DNA from: a virus
Direction: 5' to 3' (one strand)
IMG/VR virus record: IMGVR_UViG_3300036859_000361
Location: 1-32,436 of that record
Length of the DNA: 32,436 bases
Shown: positions 17,074 to 26,930 of the stretch, piece by piece
How the letters are laid out: every line of letters begins with the position of its first letter
Position numbering within the stretch: position 1 is the stretch's first letter
Notes under the pieces: model-generated
What the model was told of the DNA's origin: nothing
Database searches by the model: none
Seen by the model: only the letters and a program-made list of their open reading frames with translations
Translations under genes and position numbers: made by a program

Positions 17074-18489
17074 TTACTCGGCGCGGACTACGATGAGCGA
17101 CTGGCCGGTCACACCGTCCAGGCGCGCGTTGTAGCCGGGATACCGGCAGTGGTTCTGATACCGCTTGCGGTACCACGCCTCGAAGCTGTCACGGCCCGAG
17201 CTGCCGGTGCCCACGCGCACCAGGACCGAACCGTCCTCCTGCACCCACTCACCCGGCGAGGCCTGATAGCGGACGAACCCGCTGTTCTCCTCGTCGATGA
17301 GCATCATCACGTCGAGCGGGAAGTCCCGGATCGGCGTGACGGGCACTTCGCCGGCGGTGACGTCGCCCTGTTTGAACGCCTTGGTCAGGACGTCGGGGTT
17401 GGCCAGCGTCGACTGGATCGAGTAGCGGCGGTCGGGCTGCGAGAGCTTGAGATACAGCCGACGCGTCGAGTGGTGCGCGAGGATGCGCGTGATCTTCGAC
17501 CCGAGCTTCTGGTCGAGCACGTCCGACACCTGCTGGAGCAGATCTTCGGAGAGCGAGCCGGTCGCCGCCTTGCAGTAGCTCTGGTAGGCGCCGTAGATCG
17601 AGCGGTCCACGTTGAAGTAGTTGTTGCGGATGCCGCCGTCGTCGACGAGCGCCATCATGCCCCACGCGGCCTTTTCCCACGAGGTGTCCACGATGTCCGT
17701 GACGGAGCTGTTCGCCGCCTGGACCACGTAGTCGTTGTCCGCCACGCCCGCCGCCGGCGCCGCGTCCAGCGTGATGCTGGCGCCCGAGCTCGCGCACGCC
17801 GTGACTTTGCGGATGCCCGAGCGGAGCACGCCGGTCGCGGGGTTCACGAACCCGATATACATGCCGGGCCGGATGAAGCGGTTGCCGAACGACGCCTGCG
17901 TGAGCCCGCCGGGGTTGTCCAGCGTCAGGGTGGTGTCGGTCGTCGGCGTGCCTTCGTTGATGAACGCCAGGATGCCCTTGCCATCGAGGGTCAGCGCGGC
18001 TTCTTCCATGCGCGCGATGTCCTTGATGATTTTGTTCATCTCGTTGGTGCGCGCCGCTTTGAACGCGCCCTTCGAGCTGCGGGAATCGTGGATCGCTTCC
18101 GACGTCAGCCGGACGCGCGCCATCAGCTTGCGCTGGCCGATACGCACCTGGACGTTGCCCTGGGCGCCGGCGTCCGCGAACGCGCCGTCCTCACCGACCC
18201 ACATCGGGGAAGTGTTGCGCGTCACGTCGGCCGTGTAGACGACCTCGCGGCCCGCGAACTCGGCCGTCTCAGGCTTGAGCAGGTCGGACAGCGGGTTCCG
18301 GTTGTTCGTCTGGTCCGCGACGAAATCTTCGTAGTAGTCCTTGTAGATTCCGTCGATCTGCTGCGTGTCGGCGCCGGCCATCCCGAGGGCGGCCAGGCCG
18401 GGGAGAAGGTGAACGAACGGGACGCCGATCAGGTAGAGCAGGACCAGCGCCGTGATGACGAACGGCTTGAAGTAGGGGTGTTTGGTCAT
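17074..18489 (-). CDS. Major capsid protein, HK97 fold, with hydrophobic N-terminal extension
   Basis: 471 residues from the ATG at 18489, eight bases after the scaffold stop; an alternative ATG at 18381 gives 435 residues (MAGADTQQIDGIYKDYYED). The core shows the order expected for HK97-type coats: N-arm, E-loop with strand QVRIGQRKLMARVRLTSEAI (113-133), spine helix GAFKAARTNEMNKIIKDIAR (141-160), then a P-domain and A-domain (DTSWEKAAWGMMALVDDGG, KITRILAHHSTRRLYLKLSQ) and a C-terminal DSFEAWYRKRYQNHCRYPGY. Residues 10-38 (FVITALVLLYLIGVPFVHLL) are hydrophobic enough to span a membrane, unusual for a coat protein. Portal and scaffold upstream support the call. The start choice decides whether this extension is made. 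Confidence 0.8.
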   Translation of the reverse strand: MTKHPYFKPFVITALVLLYLIGVPFVHLLPGLAALGMAGADTQQIDGIYKDYYEDFVADQTNNRNPLSDLLKPETAEFAGREVVYTADVTRNTSPMWVGEDGAFADAGAQGNVQVRIGQRKLMARVRLTSEAIHDSRSSKGAFKAARTNEMNKIIKDIARMEEAALTLDGKGILAFINEGTPTTDTTLTLDNPGGLTQASFGNRFIRPGMYIGFVNPATGVLRSGIRKVTACASSGASITLDAAPAAGVADNDYVVQAANSSVTDIVDTSWEKAAWGMMALVDDGGIRNNYFNVDRSIYGAYQSYCKAATGSLSEDLLQQVSDVLDQKLGSKITRILAHHSTRRLYLKLSQPDRRYSIQSTLANPDVLTKAFKQGDVTAGEVPVTPIRDFPLDVMMLIDEENSGFVRYQASPGEWVQEDGSVLVRVGTGSSGRDSFEAWYRKRYQNHCRYPGYNARLDGVTGQSLIVVRAE

Positions 18490-18497
18490 GGTTGTTG

Positions 18498-19487
18498 TCA
18501 GCCTCGCGCGGCGAAGTACGCGTCCGCTGCCGCATCGTGCAGCTGGTTCGCGTCTCGTACGTTGGGTTGACCTGGTTGCTGACCGACCGGGGGCGCTCCA
18601 GCGCCACCACGCGGCACGCGCGGCGGGGGCTGTTGGCCGGGACGTCGGGGGGCACCAGGCTGTTGTCCGGTTCCGGGGGCACCTGCCTGCTGCGCCGGGA
18701 CGATCACGCCGTTGCGGTACATCCGCATGAACTCCTTGGCCAGGCCGGTGTCGCCCATCCGGTACCGGGCCGCGGCGTTCTTGTCGGTTTCCAGCCAGGA
18801 GACGAAAGCCGCGTCGAGCGACTTCTGCGCGAACTCGTGGAGCTGCCGGTTGCCGAAGGCCTCTTTGACTGCGCCGTCGAAGGCCTCCCACATCCGGGTC
18901 CCGATGTCCTGCCATCGCGCCTGGTCCTGTGACTTGAACCCGTTGACCGTCTCGGGGAGCTGCAGGATGTCCTGCGCCTTCTCGAGGAGCGGCTTGAGCT
19001 GCGGGAACAAGCGGTAGACCGCCGCGATCGCCTTCTGGTCGGCTTCAGACAGCTGCGGCTGGCCCTCACCCGCGCCCGGCCCCCCGGCCGGCGGACGGAT
19101 GCCGGTCAGCGCGGCAACCTGGTTCTGAAGCATTTGCAACTGGCCCTGGAGCTGCTGGTTCTGCGCCAGCACCGTCCGATAGCCGTTTGCAACCTGGCCG
19201 TACTGCTCTGCTGTGAACGTCTGTGGCGTCCCGCCATCCTGCCCAGGGGCGCCAGCGACCGGCGGTTGGCCGGGCTGACGTGCGGGTGCCTGAGCGGGCT
19301 GCCGGCCGGCGGGGGCAGCAGGGGGTTGGCGGGACGGGTCATCGTCACCGCCGCCGGCGTCGTCGTTGAGATCGAGATCGTACTCGGGGTGCGCCGTGGG
19401 GTCGCCGCCGCCAGAGCCATCGTCAATGCCGTCGCAAAGGGGCTGCTGGACGTAAAACCACGGACTCCGGCGCCAAGATCCGAACAT
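18498..19487 (-). CDS. Candidate head scaffolding protein
   Basis: 329 residues starting MFGSWRRSPWFYVQQP with GAGG seven bases upstream. The N-terminal third is acidic and Pro/Gln/Gly-rich (DLDLNDDAGGGDDDPSRQP), residues about 95-128 form a Gln-rich coiled coil (NGYRTVLAQNQQLQGQLQML), and residues about 150-260 are helical (LPETVNGFKSQDQARWQDIG, MWEAFDGAVKEAFGN). A Pro/Gln-rich tail ends NQLHDAAADAYFAARG. Position between portal and capsid genes and the acidic, coiled-coil composition are typical of scaffolds, which direct coat assembly and then leave. No protease motif is seen. Confidence 0.65.
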   Translation of the reverse strand: MFGSWRRSPWFYVQQPLCDGIDDGSGGGDPTAHPEYDLDLNDDAGGGDDDPSRQPPAAPAGRQPAQAPARQPGQPPVAGAPGQDGGTPQTFTAEQYGQVANGYRTVLAQNQQLQGQLQMLQNQVAALTGIRPPAGGPGAGEGQPQLSEADQKAIAAVYRLFPQLKPLLEKAQDILQLPETVNGFKSQDQARWQDIGTRMWEAFDGAVKEAFGNRQLHEFAQKSLDAAFVSWLETDKNAAARYRMGDTGLAKEFMRMYRNGVIVPAQQAGAPGTGQQPGAPRRPGQQPPPRVPRGGAGAPPVGQQPGQPNVRDANQLHDAAADAYFAARG

Positions 19488-19561: not shown

Positions 19562-22090
19562 TCACATAATCGCGGTGGCTTGCGGGCTCTGCACCCCGCT
19601 GCCGGCCGCGTGCTGATGCGCGTGCGGATTGCCGTGGCCGCTGTTCTGGTTGCTGTTTTCGAGCGCCTTGGCCGCCCCCTGCGGCGGTGGGGCCCCGACG
19701 CCGGCGCCCGCGCCCGGCGCCGACAGCATCGCCTGCTGCATGGCCTCCTGCGCGGCCGCTTCGAGGTGCGCCTGGCGGTGCAGCCCCCACAGCTCCTCCA
19801 GCTCCGGGTATTCCTGGAAGATCATCAGGGCCTCGTCCGACTGGCAGAAGATGTCGTGCTGGACGATGTGCACCATGTGCTTGTCCCACGGCCGCACCTT
19901 CAGCGGGTTGCCGGGGAACAGGATGGCCTGCTGCGTGGCGGCCGGCTGCGGCACCATCTGCGTGACGGTCTGCATCGCCGGCTGGCCGTTCTCGTCGCCG
20001 CCGCCCTGGTCGTCGGGGCCGGTCGGCGCCGCCACCTGGACCTGCTGCGGCTGCGGCGCGGCCGCGAGACGTTGCTGGTCGGAGATGAGCGGCATGCCCG
20101 GCTGCGGGGGCGGTGGAATCGTCTGCACCCAGGCCGCGAACAACGTCTGCTCGCGCAGCGCGCCCTTCATGGAGGCGTCGAGCGACGGCGCCAGGTGGCT
20201 GATGCCGATCTCGCGCATGACCTCGTAGGCCTGTTCCGGGTCCATCACGTTCAGGACCCCGAGGTTCTTGCCGTGCTCGATCGCGGCGCGCTTCCCGAGC
20301 GCGGTCTTGGGGAGCTGCGAGCCGTCCTCGACGACGATATCGACCGCGCCGGTCAGGTCCGCCTTCTTGAACTTCTTGAACGTCCAGGAGCGGTTCGGCC
20401 GCATCGCCGCCCGGATGCGTTCCTCCGGGCCGAACTGCCGCTCGATTTCGATGGCCAGCTTGTACCACTCGCGGTAGACCTCGGCGCGCGCCATCATCGC
20501 GGGCCCGAAGCGCGACTCCGACAGCTCCTTCAGGAGGTTCAGCGCGGAGAAGGCCTCGATGCCACTCGGCTTGTTCCCCTTCAGGACGTCGTAGGTGCCG
20601 ACCAGCTCCTCGATGTCCGACTTGATTTGCTCGCGGCGGGTGAACAGCGAGTTGGGGATGTTGGCGCCGGGGATGCGCTCCGGCTTCGCGTTGCCGCCGG
20701 CGACGTTCGGGTTGTACTTCACGACCAGGCCGGGCTCGCCGGTGAAGGACTTGACCTCCGCGCCCTTCGGTTCGAGCCACACCGGGTTCGCCATGCGCTG
20801 CTCGCACAGGGCCGACATCGAGTCGAGCTGATTGAGCTGGTCCTGCTTCGGCAGCATCACGTCGAGCGCGCCGCGGCCGTTCATGCGGCCGCCCAGGTCC
20901 TCGTAGATGCCGTGGACGAACGGGAACAGCGGCGTGCCGTTCTGCGTGCGGTAGGGCAGCGGGCCCGGCAGGCCTTCCTCCTCGCGCTGCACCAGGACCG
21001 GGCTCGAGTCTCCGAGCACGCGCGCGACCAGGCCGTGCGGATACTGCGTCGTCGGCCGATGCCACAGCTCGTATTCCGCCACGCCCTCGCTGGAGCCCTC
21101 GTCGCCGCCGTAGGTGATGGGCGTCGAGGCGATGTCGGACTGCTGCGCGATCGCGCGGAGCAGCTGCAGGCTGCGCTCCTGCGGCATCTTCCCCCACACG
21201 ACGCCCTTGCACATCTCCGCGCCGTAGGTGTCGAGGCAGAACTTCTTGGTCCGCCACCGGAGCCGCACGATGAGCGGGGAGTCCTTCAGCTTCGTGTAGA
21301 CGGACGGCGTGGCGTATTCAAACGGCGAGAGGACGTCGGTGAACCCGGCGCCGCCCTTGATGGTGTCGCCCACCGGATAGCCGTGCTGGTCGACCGCGCC
21401 CTCGAACTCGGCGCCGCCGCAATCGGGGCACATCGGGTTCTCGCCCAGGTCCGCGAGCTCCGCCGACGTGTACTGACCGTGACAGCCGGTGCATTCCTGC
21501 CACTGGTCGATGCGCGTGTTGGCCTCGGGGTTCCAGCCGGTCTGCAGGACGCAGTTGCCGAGCGCGATGAACCAGAAGTCGAACTCCCGCATCACGGCTT
21601 TCATGCCGTGCTCCTCCGCGATGAGGGATTCGAGCTTGTCCACCGTTTCGGCCGTGGCCACGGCGTCGGCGTCCGACGTCAGGGGCTTCGCGGTGGTCGA
21701 GAGCTGGATCGCCTGGAACACGGTCTTGATGGTGTTGAGCGCCACCTGCACCACGTTCGTGACCGGGCGGGGGATCCATTTGGCCATCCGCTTGTCGAGC
21801 CACTGGCCCCGCTTCCGGTCGTAGTAGATCCACTGCCGGCTGAGGATGTAGAGAATCACCCGCCACCAGCTGCGCTCGTAGACCCACCGATTCTCCAGCG
21901 CCTCCTTCTTGCACTCCTCGACGAACTTCAGGATCGCCTTGGTGTCCGAATAGGGGTCGACGGGCGCGGCCGCGGCGCCGCCGGTCCCGCCGCCGAACAA
22001 CTGGCCGAGCCGGGCGAGCAGACCTGGCGGGGTCTGGTCACTGCCGAGCGCGGGCGGGAGGCCTCCGGGCTGATACTCGTTGGGCTGCAT
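19562..22090 (-). CDS. Portal protein, P22-like class, with zinc-ribbon insertion
   Basis: 842 residues from the ATG at 22090, with GAGG and the upstream TGA stop just before it. Typical portal features: Trp-rich helix ERSWWRVILYILSRQWIYYD (72-91), WIPRPVTNVVQVALNTIKTV (105-124), the clip/stem region GIYEDLGGRMNGRGALDVML, and a long helical C-terminal part with IKSDIEELVGTYDVLKGNKP. The length and the Gln/Ala/Pro-rich tail fit P22-like portals. Residues 200-224 hold CxxC...CxxC (C200, C203, C221, C224), a probable zinc ribbon not usual in this family. Known: twelve copies form the DNA entry channel at one capsid vertex and bind terminase and adaptor. Confidence 0.8.
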   Translation of the reverse strand: MQPNEYQPGGLPPALGSDQTPPGLLARLGQLFGGGTGGAAAAPVDPYSDTKAILKFVEECKKEALENRWVYERSWWRVILYILSRQWIYYDRKRGQWLDKRMAKWIPRPVTNVVQVALNTIKTVFQAIQLSTTAKPLTSDADAVATAETVDKLESLIAEEHGMKAVMREFDFWFIALGNCVLQTGWNPEANTRIDQWQECTGCHGQYTSAELADLGENPMCPDCGGAEFEGAVDQHGYPVGDTIKGGAGFTDVLSPFEYATPSVYTKLKDSPLIVRLRWRTKKFCLDTYGAEMCKGVVWGKMPQERSLQLLRAIAQQSDIASTPITYGGDEGSSEGVAEYELWHRPTTQYPHGLVARVLGDSSPVLVQREEEGLPGPLPYRTQNGTPLFPFVHGIYEDLGGRMNGRGALDVMLPKQDQLNQLDSMSALCEQRMANPVWLEPKGAEVKSFTGEPGLVVKYNPNVAGGNAKPERIPGANIPNSLFTRREQIKSDIEELVGTYDVLKGNKPSGIEAFSALNLLKELSESRFGPAMMARAEVYREWYKLAIEIERQFGPEERIRAAMRPNRSWTFKKFKKADLTGAVDIVVEDGSQLPKTALGKRAAIEHGKNLGVLNVMDPEQAYEVMREIGISHLAPSLDASMKGALREQTLFAAWVQTIPPPPQPGMPLISDQQRLAAAPQPQQVQVAAPTGPDDQGGGDENGQPAMQTVTQMVPQPAATQQAILFPGNPLKVRPWDKHMVHIVQHDIFCQSDEALMIFQEYPELEELWGLHRQAHLEAAAQEAMQQAMLSAPGAGAGVGAPPPQGAAKALENSNQNSGHGNPHAHQHAAGSGVQSPQATAIM

Positions 22091-23091: not shown

Positions 23092-23279
23092 GAGGCACCT
23101 CCACCAGGGATGTCCGAGCCGGTGTCGCAGTACGACGGCTGGACGATCTGCGCCACGAACAACCGTCCGCACTGCGTGCAGCGAAGGACCGGCGAGCCCT
23201 GGAGCTTCGGGCCTTGCGCCACTTCGAGTACTCCGCCGCACTCGCACCGCACCGTCTGCAGCCGTGTCGCTTTAGGCAT
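23088..23279 (-). CDS. Zinc-ribbon mini-protein, 63 aa
   Basis: MPKATRLQTVRCECGGVLEV ... VLRCTQCGRLFVAQ has two Cys pairs (CEC and CTQC) about 20 residues apart, the spacing of a zinc ribbon. The ATG at 23279 lies inside the end of the large terminase gene, with its stop overlapping the next gene's GTG. Small zinc ribbons next to terminase genes are common in phages; some help DNA or protein contact. Role here unknown. Confidence 0.6.
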   Translation of the reverse strand: MPKATRLQTVRCECGGVLEVAQGPKLQGSPVLRCTQCGRLFVAQIVQPSYCDTGSDIPGGGAS

Positions 23280-24771
23280 AAAAGTCTCCCATCGGGTTCC
23301 CGCGCCACTCGCCCTCCTCGAGGCCGTGGTGCAACAGGGTCATTGGATCGTCGTCTCCGAACTCGTTGCTGACCGACAACGCGTTCCAGTCGAGGCCGGA
23401 ATCGCCTTCGCCCTTCTCGATGCGCTGCAGCCGCTCCCAGGCCCACCGCGCTTCCTCGGGGACCGACTCCGCCAGGCGGACCAGCGGGTTCTCGACGTGC
23501 TTCGGCAGCTCCGGGTAGAGCATGCAGGCGTAGCGCAGCGCGTCGGGCAGGTCGTCGTCCCGCTTGATGACGCGCTCGCGCTTCGCCACGCCGTCCTTGC
23601 CCCAGTTCTCGTCCCACCGATAGTTCTGGAGCTGCTCGATGAGCCGGGGCACGCGGCGCTTCACGAACCACAGTTGCTTGTTGCGGAGCCAGGTCGCCAC
23701 GCGCTGAATGCCGGCGACGACGTTGTTCTCGGCGGGGATGACGTAAAGGCCGTGGTTGGCGAGCTCCAGGGCGGCCTGCTTCTGCGAGCGGTCGTAGCCG
23801 CGGCGCTCGATGACGAACGGCGACTCCATCCGCCGGATCGCGTCGGCGTGTTCGCCGTAGGTCTTGTTGCGCTCCAAGTACTCGTTGATGCAGACCAGGC
23901 CTTTTTCGGTGACGACGATGAGGAGGCCGGCGAAGGGATGGTCGGCGCCGGGGTCGAGCGCGCTGAACGCGGGGCGCGAGGCCTCCAGGCGCGGCCACTC
24001 GGGGAGCACCTGGCGGATTTGCTCGTCGGTGTCGAGGATCTGCGTGCCGAGCAGCTGCCCGTAGACGCTGCCGGTGAAGCAGACGAAATCGCCCAGGTAT
24101 TCCTGCTGGAAGAACAGGTCGTCCAGGTCGAGTTTCGCTTCCGCGACTTCCTCGGCGGAGATCTTCGGGTTGTCGATCGTGCGGTACTTGACCGCCCAGT
24201 ACCCGGGCCGGCCGTTTTGCGCGGGGACGTAGAACTTGTGATAGCACCAGTCGTAGCCGTTGGGCGACGTGGTGATCCAGGCGATGCCCTGGTGGTCGGA
24301 GAGCGTGGGGCGGAGGACCTTCCACGCCATCTCCTGCGTTTTGCGCCCTTCGTCGATCCACAGCCAGTTCAGACCGGGGCCGCGGCCGCGTTCCGGGTCG
24401 TCCAGCGACCGGAAGCTGATTTTCGACTTGTTCTTGAGGATCAGTTCGTGGTGCGCGGCGCTCCAATCGTGAATCCAGCCGCGCGGGATGATGCCGAGGA
24501 CCGCCGGGAGCACGTAGTCGTGCAGTTCCGGGTAGGTCGGCGCGCAGGCCCACCCATGCGTGTTCGGGATCGTCGCTTCCTCGACGGCCGAGATGCCCCC
24601 GATGCGGGTTTTACCACCCCGGCGGCCGCTGAACAGCCCGAAGCGGCGGAAGGCGCGGGTGCCGTCCGCGAGGCGGGCGCGGCGGGCGTTCAAAAAGGCG
24701 GTCTGATAGGGGTGGTCGAGGAGGGCGACCTGGCCGGTGTCATTAACCGGCAGATTTCGCAGGTTCGCCAT
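23272..24771 (-). CDS. terL: Terminase large subunit (ATPase and nuclease)
   Basis: 499 residues, starting directly after the stop of the small-subunit candidate. The N-terminal ATPase has a Walker A, GLFSGRRGGKT (45-55), a Walker B with catalytic Glu, LNWLWIDE (134-141), and a coupling motif TTSP (167-170). The C-terminal RNase H-like nuclease shows its first acidic residue in ALDPGADHPF (D273), another in GYDRSQ (D327), and a third cluster RDDDLPDALRYA (404-415). Known: TerL docks on the portal, pumps DNA into the prohead and cuts the concatemer. All key motifs are present, so the enzyme looks intact. Confidence 0.92.
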   Translation of the reverse strand: MANLRNLPVNDTGQVALLDHPYQTAFLNARRARLADGTRAFRRFGLFSGRRGGKTRIGGISAVEEATIPNTHGWACAPTYPELHDYVLPAVLGIIPRGWIHDWSAAHHELILKNKSKISFRSLDDPERGRGPGLNWLWIDEGRKTQEMAWKVLRPTLSDHQGIAWITTSPNGYDWCYHKFYVPAQNGRPGYWAVKYRTIDNPKISAEEVAEAKLDLDDLFFQQEYLGDFVCFTGSVYGQLLGTQILDTDEQIRQVLPEWPRLEASRPAFSALDPGADHPFAGLLIVVTEKGLVCINEYLERNKTYGEHADAIRRMESPFVIERRGYDRSQKQAALELANHGLYVIPAENNVVAGIQRVATWLRNKQLWFVKRRVPRLIEQLQNYRWDENWGKDGVAKRERVIKRDDDLPDALRYACMLYPELPKHVENPLVRLAESVPEEARWAWERLQRIEKGEGDSGLDWNALSVSNEFGDDDPMTLLHHGLEEGEWRGNPMGDFYA

Positions 24772-25362
24772 CTACTCGGCGTCCACTGCAGACGTCTGCG
24801 GGGCGTCCAGGCTGCGCGCGACCCCCAGGACCGCCCCTTCGATGACGTCGGGCGCGGGTTTCGAGGCATCCGCGCGCTCGAACACGAACGTCAGCTTCAT
24901 GTCGCCCTGCGGGGTGGCGTCTTGCTTGATGGCCGAGTGGGCTTTCAGCTCCCCGAGGCCGTGCAGGACCTTCGTGCCGAGGACCGCCGCGAACTCCGTG
25001 TCCCCCTCGACGAGCCCTTCGAGCACGCGATCGACCGCGAGCTGCGCGACGTCGCCGCGGAGGCGATCCGCGATCTTCTGCAGCTCCTCTTTGCTGCGCT
25101 TCCGCGTCTCGTGGACCCACCAGCGCACCGTCGACGTCGCCACGTCGAACAGTTCCGCGACCTTGGCGTAGCTGCCGACCTCGGCGTAGAGGACCGCCAT
25201 CAGCGTGCCGCGCTGAATCAGCTTTTCCTGTTGTTCGGGGGTCGGGGGTTCTTTCGGCGGCGGAGGCGGAGGTGTAGGTTTTGCCCGCTCGATGGGCACA
25301 TTTCCACGCGAAATCGTCGTGGACGCACGGCGAGCCGGCGTTGTCGACCGGGATTTTGCCAT
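24772..25362 (-). CDS. Candidate terminase small subunit
   Basis: 196 residues, stop TAG adjoining the TerL ATG. After a basic, proline-rich arm (PIERAKPTPPPPPPKEPPTP) there is a helix-turn-helix-like segment, MAVLYAEVGSYAKVAELFDV then ATSTVRWWVHETRKRS (residues about 54-90), followed by an oligomerisation helix region and ending in a flexible tail. The pattern 'A.VGSY.KVAE.FDVATSTVR.WV' plus position directly before TerL are the usual marks of TerS, which recognises the phage packaging site. The residues are a reading of mine, not a family match. Confidence 0.7.
   Translation of the reverse strand: MAKSRSTTPARRASTTISRGNVPIERAKPTPPPPPPKEPPTPEQQEKLIQRGTLMAVLYAEVGSYAKVAELFDVATSTVRWWVHETRKRSKEELQKIADRLRGDVAQLAVDRVLEGLVEGDTEFAAVLGTKVLHGLGELKAHSAIKQDATPQGDMKLTFVFERADASKPAPDVIEGAVLGVARSLDAPQTSAVDAE
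24787..24800. repeat. 14-mer copy 13
   Basis: TGCAGACGTCTGCG, 13 of 14, nearly a perfect palindrome. Small-terminase gene end, codes QTSA. Confidence 0.7.
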
Positions 25363-25422: not shown

Positions 25423-25554
25423 TTACTGGCGAGGCGGGGGGTCGGACGAGCGTAGTTGGCGCACCAGATCGGCCACGAGCAGCGCGCCGAGCAGGAACGG
25501 CACGAGGTGCAGAACCACGGTCACAGCGGTGACGGTTGCAACCGGCGTGCTCAC
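25423..25554 (-). CDS. Single-span membrane mini-protein, 43 aa
   Basis: GTG at 25554 overlaps the TGA of the gene upstream. The product, MSTPVATVTAVTVVLHLVPF then LLGALLVADLVRQLRSSDPP, has one hydrophobic span (residues about 8-30) with a positive, Pro-rich C-terminus. It could be a holin-like or membrane-anchoring peptide; no partner endolysin is visible in the window, so a lysis role is not supported by neighbours. Its length matches another single-span ORF on the plus strand at 28582-28713. Confidence 0.5.
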   Translation of the reverse strand: MSTPVATVTAVTVVLHLVPFLLGALLVADLVRQLRSSDPPPRQ

Positions 25555-25745
25555 TCGTCGCAGGCGTCCCGGAGCTGCTGCACGCGGGGGTCCTCGACGT
25601 AGGCGACGTAGCGGCGGTCGGCCGTCAGAAGCTGCGGAAGCGGGTGGCCGAGCGGCCCGAGAGGCGACGTCGGCCGGTCGACGGTCAGCGGGCCCGGTTC
25701 GAACCAGTCCGCGTGGTCGATGACGTACTCCTCGTCGCTCAGCAT
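25551..25745 (-). CDS. Hypothetical acidic protein, 64 aa
   Basis: Not recognised. MLSDEEYVIDHADWFEPGPL ... ADRRYVAYVEDPRVQQLRDA is acidic, with a proline-rich centre and a C-terminal helix. Its ATG (25745) overlaps the end of the capsid-like gene by seven bases, and its stop overlaps the next GTG. Coupled translation with both neighbours suggests a shared function. Confidence 0.5.
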   Translation of the reverse strand: MLSDEEYVIDHADWFEPGPLTVDRPTSPLGPLGHPLPQLLTADRRYVAYVEDPRVQQLRDACDE

Positions 25746-26233
25746 GTGGCACTCCGATTGCTCAGTCGGGGGGTGCCCCCCGGCAACCCACGTTTTCCGT
25801 CCGCTTCCGCTACACCACCTGTCAGCCGCCGGACTCTACGGGTCCGGCGACCTCCCCGCAGCAAATGCCGTTCCTCTTGGCGACGGAACCCCTCCGCGAT
25901 GGCGGCCAACTCGCGGTTCCAGGCGTCGACGAACGCGCCCGGCGTGTGCCGCGAGGCCTCGATGACGGGCCCGCTGATGCGGATGCGGGCGTAGAGCTGG
26001 CGGAACGGGACCTGGACCACCGTGAAGGGGTCCAGAGTCCCGTAATCCACGCCGGCCAAGACCGGCTGCGCCAACTCGATGGCGGGGGCGACGGCGAGGG
26101 TCAGGCCAGCCGCGGCGCCCAGGAACAGGAACCGCCGGCGCGAAATTGCATTTGTTTGGTGCAGTTTCGGGCAGTGTTCCATGTGGAACATCCCGCACCG
26201 GGCGCACGGCTCTACAGTGGGCCCATGACTCAC
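25739..26233 (-). CDS. Twin-arginine-like leader fused to a partial HK97 capsid module, 164 aa
   Basis: Start chosen at the GTG at 26233, which overlaps the upstream TGA (GTGA). Residues 10-25 hold CxxC and HxxHC (EPCARCGMFHMEHCPKLH). Residues 31-60 form a twin-arginine-like leader: SRRRFLFLG then AAAGLTLAVAPA, ending LAG. Residues 73-127 (VQVPFRQLYARIRISGPVIE, GAFVDAWNRELAAIAEGFRR) align with the capsid protein of this same phage: from R78/R120 to L124/L166, 18 of 47 columns are identical without a gap (my hand count). That is the E-loop strand and spine helix. Nothing of the P- or A-domain follows, only an Arg-rich tail. Inferred: a capsid-derived piece that may act at a membrane or in assembly; it may also be a decayed gene. 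Confidence 0.6.
   Translation of the reverse strand: MSHGPTVEPCARCGMFHMEHCPKLHQTNAISRRRFLFLGAAAGLTLAVAPAIELAQPVLAGVDYGTLDPFTVVQVPFRQLYARIRISGPVIEASRHTPGAFVDAWNRELAAIAEGFRRQEERHLLRGGRRTRRVRRLTGGVAEADGKRGLPGGTPRLSNRSATC
25767..25782. other. GC hairpin inside the 3' end of the capsid-like gene
   Basis: CGGGGGG (25767-25773), TG, CCCCCCG (25776-25782), in the region that encodes the Arg/Gly tail. It may mark a region that was once noncoding or a terminator within the small-gene operon. Confidence 0.35.
25827..25849. other. 8-bp stem hairpin in the capsid-like gene
   Basis: CGCCGGAC (25827-25834), seven-base loop TCTACGG, GTCCGGCG (25842-25849). It lies just after the last codons that align with the capsid protein, so it roughly marks where the similarity stops. 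Confidence 0.35.
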
Positions 26234-26772
26234 GGCAGAACCTCGAACGGGACCGTCACCGGGTGGAGCTCGTCCCAACCGTGGCGGTCGTCGTGACGCG
26301 AGATGCCGCAGGCCAGGACGCGCTGACCCTTGCGGGGCGGGGCGATTGGCAGCTGCGGAATCACCTCTGCCACGAGGAGTCGGCCGGCGCCATCGTCGAG
26401 CGTGATGTGCCAGTCGCCGTCCTCCTGGCGGCGGACGTAGGTGACACGGCCCTGGACGCAGCTATTGGCGTGCGTGCGGACCTTCGCAAACGCCGTGAGC
26501 GTGTAGTCGGCGGGGAGCTGCGGGCCTGCCGCCAGCAGGTGCGTCCCGAGCAGCCACCAGAAGGCGGCGACGGCCAGGAGCCCGAGGACGAGCAGGACGA
26601 GCAGCCGGCGGACGTTCGGCGGCACAGCTTCCGCCGGCGTTAGGGGTTCGTCCCGGACGAACACCATCGCGCAGGGGCCTGAGTGGTGGCGCGGCCGGAT
26701 GCAGGTGTAGCCGATCGCCCGGTCGTAGGGGGTCTGGTCGCGGCCGCACGCGCCCTCGGCCGGCAGTTTCAC
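26230..26772 (-). CDS. Membrane-anchored protein with OB-like domain, 180 aa
   Basis: Start set at the GTG at 26772, which overlaps the previous TGA. Order: Cys-rich N-terminus (GACGRDQTPYDRAIGYTC, HHSGPCAM), a single membrane span VRRLLVLLVLGLLAVAAFWW near residues 74-95, then a beta-barrel-like domain (NSCVQGRVTYVRRQEDGDWH, LVAEVIPQLP, KGQRVLACGISRHDDRHGW, ELHPVTVPFEVLP). The pattern 'G.VTYV....DGD.HI.L.D......AEIIPQ.P......G..V...G..R.D..H.W.E.HPV' is a recurring OB/SH3-like domain of unknown role found in bacterial and phage proteins. A Cys pair (NSC, LACG) would be outside if the N-terminus is inside. Confidence 0.55.
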   Translation of the reverse strand: MKLPAEGACGRDQTPYDRAIGYTCIRPRHHSGPCAMVFVRDEPLTPAEAVPPNVRRLLVLLVLGLLAVAAFWWLLGTHLLAAGPQLPADYTLTAFAKVRTHANSCVQGRVTYVRRQEDGDWHITLDDGAGRLLVAEVIPQLPIAPPRKGQRVLACGISRHDDRHGWDELHPVTVPFEVLP

Positions 26773-26930
26773 CGGCGCCCCCGCAACCACAGCCGCAGGC
26801 CGTTGACGCGCGGCGCCGGGTTCTCGAGCGTGGCGGCGGCTTCTCGGCGCTCGTGCCGGTTCCACACGCGCACGTTCCGGCGATAGAGCCGGCCCGGGCC
26901 GAACCGCTGGCGGAAGCTACGAAGCTGCAC
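26769..26930 (-). CDS. Small basic protein, 53 aa
   Basis: Not recognised. A GTG at 26930 gives MQLRSFRQRFGPGRLYRRNV then RVWNRHERREAAATLENPAP and a basic end RLWLRGRR. It overlaps the end of the zinc-ribbon gene by 14 bases and its stop by GTGA with the next gene. The strong positive charge could allow nucleic-acid binding. The ribosome site is weak, so the start is not certain. Confidence 0.4.
   Translation of the reverse strand: MQLRSFRQRFGPGRLYRRNVRVWNRHERREAAATLENPAPRVNGLRLWLRGRR

Follow-up and report, generated by a model that had tools for sequence, protein, structure and literature searches.

Capsid proteins are usually viewed as whole, soluble building blocks. Among described systems, prohead assembly of phage T4 begins on the inner membrane with the phage chaperone gp40 and the membrane-bound gp20 prohead initiator (PMC9958956), and small accessory proteins such as P4 Sid and PLE TcaP act as satellite-encoded remodellers of HK97-fold coats (PMC10945586). 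Major capsid proteins (MCPs) are also read by capsid-sensing immunity: the predicted contacts of CapRel-SJ46 are the P-domain β-sheet and the spine helix, the site of the escape mutations L114P and I115F (PMC9712102), and escape from Thoeris has been mapped to the E-loop (W84K) and the P-loop (PMC12578639).

Here we describe P0001, a 164-aa gene in an IMG/VR virus record (IMGVR_UViG_3300036859_000361) that was analysed over its whole length of 32,436 bases, hereafter the window. Its product holds about 57 of the roughly 435 residues of an HK97-fold MCP (NF033394; phrog_14242), plus a twin-arginine-like (Tat-like) leader. The E-loop strand, short helix and spine helix align without gaps, whereas the N-arm, the first E-loop strand, the remaining P-domain and the A-domain are missing from P0001. 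With Tat signal domain proteins (TIGR01409, PF10518) it shares S-R-R-R-F-L, a hydrophobic stretch and a possible A-x-A-like exit, but those proteins carry folded cofactor enzymes and the cargo here is a piece of capsid. The idea in common with T4 would be a phage-coded factor that links head assembly to the inner membrane; gp40, however, acts on the portal and has no known homology to capsid protein, so that the likeness is functional only. Sid and TcaP are likewise comparable by kind, but they are satellite-encoded, whereas P0001 is phage-encoded, coat-derived and membrane-leadered. No earlier account of a capsid fragment behind a Tat leader turned up among the open-access papers searched. 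Related viruses have shell-fragment genes at the same spot, which may point to an undescribed shell-building helper or to an anti-immunity decoy.

P0001 is a gene of the late operon

The structural genes of the window all lie on the minus strand, together with P0001 and its neighbours:

17074-18489, minus strand: MCP (P0002), the fold source of the module (phrog_14242 major head protein, E = 5.9e-20; NF033394, 69.8 bits; HK97 fold by Foldseek)
18498-19487, minus strand: scaffold-like gene
19562-22090, minus strand: portal
23272-24771, minus strand: large terminase, TerL (PF17289, phrog_2)
24772-25362, minus strand: small terminase, TerS (HTH; position before TerL), the fixed neighbour of capsid-module genes
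25551-25745, minus strand: 64-aa gene, no family
25739-26233, minus strand: P0001, with a CxxC region, Tat-like leader, MCP E-loop/spine module and probable read-through tail
26230-26865, minus strand: 211-aa gene, no family, with one transmembrane segment by inspection

The first-pass annotation had the frame and coordinates of P0001 right. The GTG with which it starts (26233) shares bases with the stop of the upstream 211-aa gene (GTGA), and its own stop overlaps the ATG of the downstream 64-aa gene, overlaps that resemble those of a translationally coupled operon. P0001 is a genuine late-operon gene. PHROG profiles gave it no significant match (the best, phrog_30497, is of unknown function at E = 0.21), PADLOC defence and counter-defence models no family at E ≤ 1, and PDB sequence searches and Rfam no match. 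A Foldseek search of its model in BFVD returned nothing useful, as expected from a low-confidence model.

A partial paralogue of the phage's own capsid protein

The capsid similarity involves two segments:

25847-26017, minus strand: P0001 residues 73-129, module of E-loop strand, short helix and spine helix
17977-18147, minus strand: MCP residues 115-171, homologous to the module

BLASTP aligns these segments without gaps, with 20 of 57 residues identical (35.8 bits, E = 3e-7). The ungapped pairing of residues 78-124 with capsid residues 120-166 that had been proposed from the sequence lies inside this match, and its hand count of 18 of 47 is correct for that sub-stretch. Any relation to the HK97 fold had been staked beforehand on a profile search, and profiles find it: P0001 scores 27.1 bits with a profile of 7 MCPs (at most 3.8 in 2,000 shuffles) and 26.7 bits with a profile of 83 MCPs (at most 6.0 in 2,000 shuffles), and the independent NCBIfam model NF033394 (capsid_maj_Podo) aligns residues 62-129 with model positions 66-133 at E = 1.7e-4. 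The latter score, 20.9 bits, falls below the cut-off of 80 because the match is partial. More specifically, P0001 covers only positions 77-134 of the 433 in the 83-MCP profile and the match stops at the end of the spine helix (capsid DGRG), in agreement with the proposal that only the E-loop strand and spine helix are represented. Twelve of the 22 module columns that are conserved in at least 85% of MCPs are kept, and R83 (99% of MCPs), E108 (100%), the closing G128 (99%) and R129 (90%) are retained.

The structural models place these residues in the fold. A model of the MCP (45 sequences, pLDDT 73) is recognized by Foldseek as HK97 Head II (E = 3e-8, TM 0.69 on target), with the E-loop strand at 120-129, a helix at 130-138 and the spine helix at 140-167; their counterparts in P0001 are residues 78-87, 88-96 and 98-125. 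The AlphaFold model of P0001 has a pLDDT of 56 overall and leans on the supplied alignment; its confident part consists of helices 88-93 and 100-132 (pLDDT about 70-88). Apart from these it shows only the leader helix, and a complete HK97 fold is absent from P0001. The phage genome encodes a separate complete MCP, and no capsid match besides P0001 and the MCP was found in any frame of the window, so a frame-shifted full-length capsid was rejected. The origin of P0001 as a partial paralogue of the phage's own MCP is well supported, and we consider it very likely that the gene encodes an MCP-derived fragment with a hydrophobic, Tat-like leader.

Leader and N-terminal Cys/His region

Upstream of the module lie three further features:

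26195-26206, minus strand: CxxC, P0001 residues 10-13
26175-26190: 16-bp parS-like palindrome TGTTCCACATGGAACA, which encodes the HxxHC of P0001
26054-26146, minus strand: Tat-like leader, residues 30-60 (ISRRRFLFLGAAAGLTLAVAPAIELAQPVLA)

The leader ISRRRFLFLGAAAGLTLAVAP narrowly passes the NCBI cut-off for TIGR01409 (16.8 against 16.7 bits) but stays below that of Pfam TAT_signal, PF10518 (10.6 against 22.7 bits). Its RR-x-F and hydrophobic stretch are kept in both genes of a related phage, L005, described below. A hydrophobic and Tat-like character of the leader is thus well supported from its sequence, and it is weakly predicted to be a Tat signal; the Tat-type signal of the first-pass annotation holds by the one model and not by the other. 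The CxxC/HxxHC knuckle proposed there is not supported as a whole: CxxC is kept in the alignment with the L005 homologue, whereas HxxHC is absent there, is encoded by the palindrome and lies in a stretch of poor coding score. Single parS-like palindromes are found upstream of TerS in two related phages, at 26175-26190 of the window and at 7698-7711 of L005 (GTTTCACGTGGAAC).

Between leader and module, residues 60-72 (window 26015-26056) contain AGVDYGTLDPF, which is nearly identical to the start of the RNase H motif of some phage terminases (AGIDYGTLDPF in L002 and L003). A first scan of viral contigs returned only these terminases with AG[IV]DYGTLDPF, and the likeness is probably due to chance, having been selected by the search pattern.

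Capsid-module genes recur upstream of TerS

Relatives were collected by TerL and MCP searches, which gave L004 (TerL 92%), L005 (TerL 77%), L009 and L010 (MCP 66% and 60%), followed by about 80 MCP relatives. In the L010 record (locus L015, reverse strand), what looks like an intein (ALDTPIPTPRGWSKMGDL...IPTHNTK) splits the TerL frame within the Walker A region (GRRGGK/TKGG).

L005, which comes from another metagenome, has two adjacent Tat-leader genes 5' of TerS:

L005 8360-8725: g1, leader RLSRRRFLFLGATAAAGLIVAP followed by the MCP N-arm (SIDQILKEYYEPVVVEMCNNRNSLSL)
L005 8725-9072: g2, CxxC and leader ASRRRFFFGLAAAG followed by the E-loop/spine module

The g2 product is 45% identical to P0001 along leader and module. 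Because L005 too joins leader and module in a gene at the equivalent position, an assembly chimera is unlikely, and g2 is the counterpart in another phage for which a search had been suggested. Over the module alone, P0001 and g2 are 42% identical while the MCPs of both phages are about 91% identical. Two other phages carry related genes directly 5' of TerS. That of L009 encodes a single leaderless protein of 247 aa in a permuted order, with the spine-helix module before the N-arm module. That of L047 (104 aa) has an MNRRGFL leader and an N-arm-like stretch; it is a probable member of the class only, because its profile score (8.2-8.3 bits) barely exceeds the background (7.6) and its own shuffles (6.7). 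PHROG profiles gave no significant match to the genes of L005, L009 and L047.

Among 21,427 ORFs of the loci collected, the five best non-MCP matches to the 83-MCP profile are all capsid-module genes just 5' of TerS, four clear and one borderline, from four phages (the window, L005, L009 and L047). They score 25.7, 22.1, 16.3, 12.0 and 8.2 bits, and the next ORF 7.6. Of all the ORFs, 4.9% lie in the 2.6 kb 5' of TerL, which puts the chance of four clear matches there at about 6e-6, a figure that counts the two L005 genes separately and ignores kinship. The same procedure with profiles of the portal (842 aa), TerL and two tail proteins yielded no comparable fragments at the TerS-upstream site, and these controls rule out a fragment graveyard of all structural genes. 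By the 83-MCP profile, the capsid pieces retained come from the N-arm, the E-loop and the spine, and in no case from the A-domain.

Wider searches returned no further members: tblastn of P0001, L005 g1 and the L047 gene found no related place in 50,697 phage records; a DNA pattern scan for RR-x-F plus N-arm found 24 places and no open frame with Tat leader and N-arm, a negative of little weight because the strict pattern also missed L005 g1; a scan with the P0001 and L005 g2 alignment recovered L005 alone; bacterial and archaeal genomes scanned for the capsid family gave no prophage relative; and a second capsid scan starting from L047 added ten loci and no module genes. Comparison of the sequences confirms a small recurrent class of capsid-module genes beyond a single oddity. 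The arrangement called 'not a standard gene' in the first-pass annotation, in which part of an HK97 fold follows a Tat-like leader ahead of the terminase genes, is indeed present, and recurs in relatives. Because of the divergence of the module (42% against about 91%) and its presence in only 4 of the 41 distinct loci that have the region, we regard the capsid-module gene as accessory rather than core.

Coding signature and a probable read-through tail

Codon statistics were trained on the phage's own structural genes and are given in bits per codon. Residues 30-60, 61-72 and 73-129 of P0001 score +0.35, +0.18 and +0.31, compared with +0.30 for TerS, whereas residues 1-29 score −0.64 and residues 130-164 score −0.94; no 35-codon window of a structural gene falls below −0.61. 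The codon scores therefore indicate that leader and capsid module are coding and that the tail is probably intergenic. The tail and its repeats are:

25742-25846, minus strand: P0001 residues 130-164, probable read-through tail
25827-25849: perfect 8-bp inverted repeat with a 7-nt loop, at the start of the tail
25767-25782: perfect 7-bp inverted repeat with a 2-nt loop, within the tail

GC2 and GC3 of residues 130-164 are 0.75 and 0.58, and the L005 homologue stops exactly at the equivalent of residue 129. This stretch is probably intergenic DNA that came to be read through after the ancestral stop was lost.

Between the P0001 and L005 g2 modules, codon positions 1, 2 and 3 are identical at fractions of 0.54, 0.59 and 0.44, and where the two proteins have the same residue, the codons differ in half of the cases. 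The pattern suggests protein-level constraint on the module since the two genes split, at least until recently, and P0001 probably has a selected function of some kind.

These data also bear on a near-neutral origin, in which a roaming leader became joined to MCP pieces by recombination in the TerS-upstream region, giving copies that persist for a time and then decay. We still consider this explanation, since the architectures all differ (alone, split in two, permuted, weak), leaders are swapped freely, at MCP N-termini too, and the reading frame of the window copy, apparently after loss of its stop, runs into non-coding DNA past residue 129; the region itself is highly variable. On the other hand, only capsid pieces are found and none from the longer portal and TerL genes, every match lies 5' of TerS, genes overlap at both ends of P0001, and in both phages leader and module preserve their reading frame and their coding signature, with third positions the most diverged. 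On balance we judge a near-neutral chimera somewhat unlikely. The related suggestion of a captured and decaying second coat is weakened by the maintenance of the module between two phages and by the capsid-only fragments at the site, whereas the 3' end of the window copy, which looks degraded or read-through, speaks for it.

Hydrophobic leaders on the major capsid protein

The MCP itself begins with a leader:

18382-18489, minus strand: hydrophobic N-terminal MCP leader before MAGADT (Kyte-Doolittle 2.79)

In the window, L004, L005 and L009, the MCP has a hydrophobic leader of 17-36 residues ahead of the conserved MAGADT. A ribosome-site-like motif (in the window, the SD-like GAGG) precedes the leader start and is absent at the inner Met, the site at which leaderless MCPs do show it. 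Judged by a simple hydropathy threshold, such leaders occur in 10 of 76 distinct MCPs of the family, right before the MAGADT-type start (the window, L004, L005, L009, L042, L086/L087, L089, L091, L129 and L138), and they seem to be swapped between MCPs of the phage group. Capsid-module genes are present in 3 of 5 loci with a leader-bearing MCP and in 1 of 36 others (Fisher p = 0.004, kinship ignored; the three are close relatives). The MCP leader of L086/L087 resembles a classical signal peptide (SSVAHAAG). Other recurrent N-terminal extensions of the MCP are INTKVVIDM.TGD......Y..GPVA in L051, L052 and L084, and QSPDG.L(W/H) in L055, L151 and L152.

A tentative role in membrane-linked head assembly

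Our best explanation, held tentatively and at rather less than even confidence, is that P0001 is an MCP-derived, membrane-tethered accessory of head assembly. In P0001, the E-loop strand and the spine helix of the HK97 fold follow a twin-arginine-like hydrophobic leader, and this fragment has been retained next to TerS as an accessory gene where the late operon begins. We hypothesize that the leader holds P0001 at the cytoplasmic membrane, either anchored or Tat-targeted, and that the module docks on MCP subunits via the contacts of neighbouring subunits. The nascent capsid, whose own MCP bears a hydrophobic leader, could in this way be recruited or nucleated at the membrane.

Several results are consistent with a head-assembly role: the homology seen by BLASTP, MCP profiles and NF033394; the leader-plus-module architecture common to two phages over its whole length; the position of the top five non-MCP matches; the restriction to capsid fragments, with none comparable from portal, TerL or tail profiles; and the lower identity at third codon positions. 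The hydrophobic MCP leaders in the same phages, with their association with module genes, favour a membrane reading, for which the membrane-started prohead of T4 is a precedent with a different factor. Against a head-assembly role, a surface that docks on the MCP should be more conserved than the module is, the L009 gene is leaderless with its modules in reverse order, L042 and L138 have leader-bearing MCPs and no module gene, and the window copy carries a read-through tail. Presence in so few loci also makes the module gene dispensable.

A more far-reaching version, in which a tailed-phage lineage assembles its heads on the host membrane, with leader-bearing MCPs and Tat-leader N-arm and E-loop/spine accessories that tether or nucleate the shell by the terminase gene, is speculative and we think it unlikely. 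If true, it would define a previously undescribed class of assembly factors that derive from the capsid protein and are addressed to the membrane. Stand-alone pieces of capsid under export-type leaders, recurring beside TerS, together with leader-bearing MCPs, would open membrane-linked head assembly to testing in ordinary tailed phages.

The same elements could instead serve in the virion. As a minor component, the module would become part of the shell, for instance at special positions of the lattice, and the leader, inside or near a vertex, would act on the membrane at genome entry. The module does contain inter-subunit elements of the MCP, comparable leaders occur on the MCPs of several relatives, and relatives carry the annotation of podoviruses, phages that have to get across the envelope. 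Lacking the A-domain, however, it cannot replace a whole subunit, and a Tat-type RR motif is unexpected for such use; we consider this role improbable.

Capsid mimicry and interference

The strongest functional rival to a head-assembly role is a decoy for capsid-sensing immunity. The fragment would show the spine-helix/E-loop epitope without the full capsid and sequester or mis-trigger a sensor at the membrane, before the MCP is made, because P0001 occupies the 5' end of the late operon and precedes the MCP gene by about 7 kb. Known capsid sensors read this same region, in the predicted contacts and escape sites of CapRel-SJ46 on the spine-helix region (PMC9712102) and, in part, in Thoeris escape in the E-loop (PMC12578639), and this would make P0001 a concrete candidate for capsid-mimic counter-defence. 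The choice of retained pieces, without the A-domain, agrees with such a function, and patchy presence and fast divergence would suit an arms race. However, 35% identity to the phage's own MCP is a large divergence for mimicry of a specific epitope, a Tat or membrane leader is not expected on a cytosolic decoy, the intact MCP would still be sensed later, and PADLOC gave no defence-related family match. A decoy function therefore seems distinctly unlikely to us.

Patchy distribution among related phages, and descent from a self-assembling protein, would also fit an interference protein, which as a dominant-negative piece of capsid held at the membrane would poison head assembly when related phages co-infect. 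P0001, however, resembles its own MCP as much as those of others (35% against up to 39%), and self-harm would be expected because it is made together with an equally similar MCP, which renders interference very improbable.

Other genes of the region

A small Tat-leader protein of L081 (8166-8936, minus strand; NRRGFLATLGAAVVGLVLPKPPGW...), with no capsid similarity in the profile search, is encoded opposite the structural genes. Across about 40 loci, the TerS-upstream region is a highly variable cargo site that also contains, by inspection, putative cytosine methyltransferases (L029, L031) and a glycosyltransferase-like gene (L038), along with many small orphan genes.
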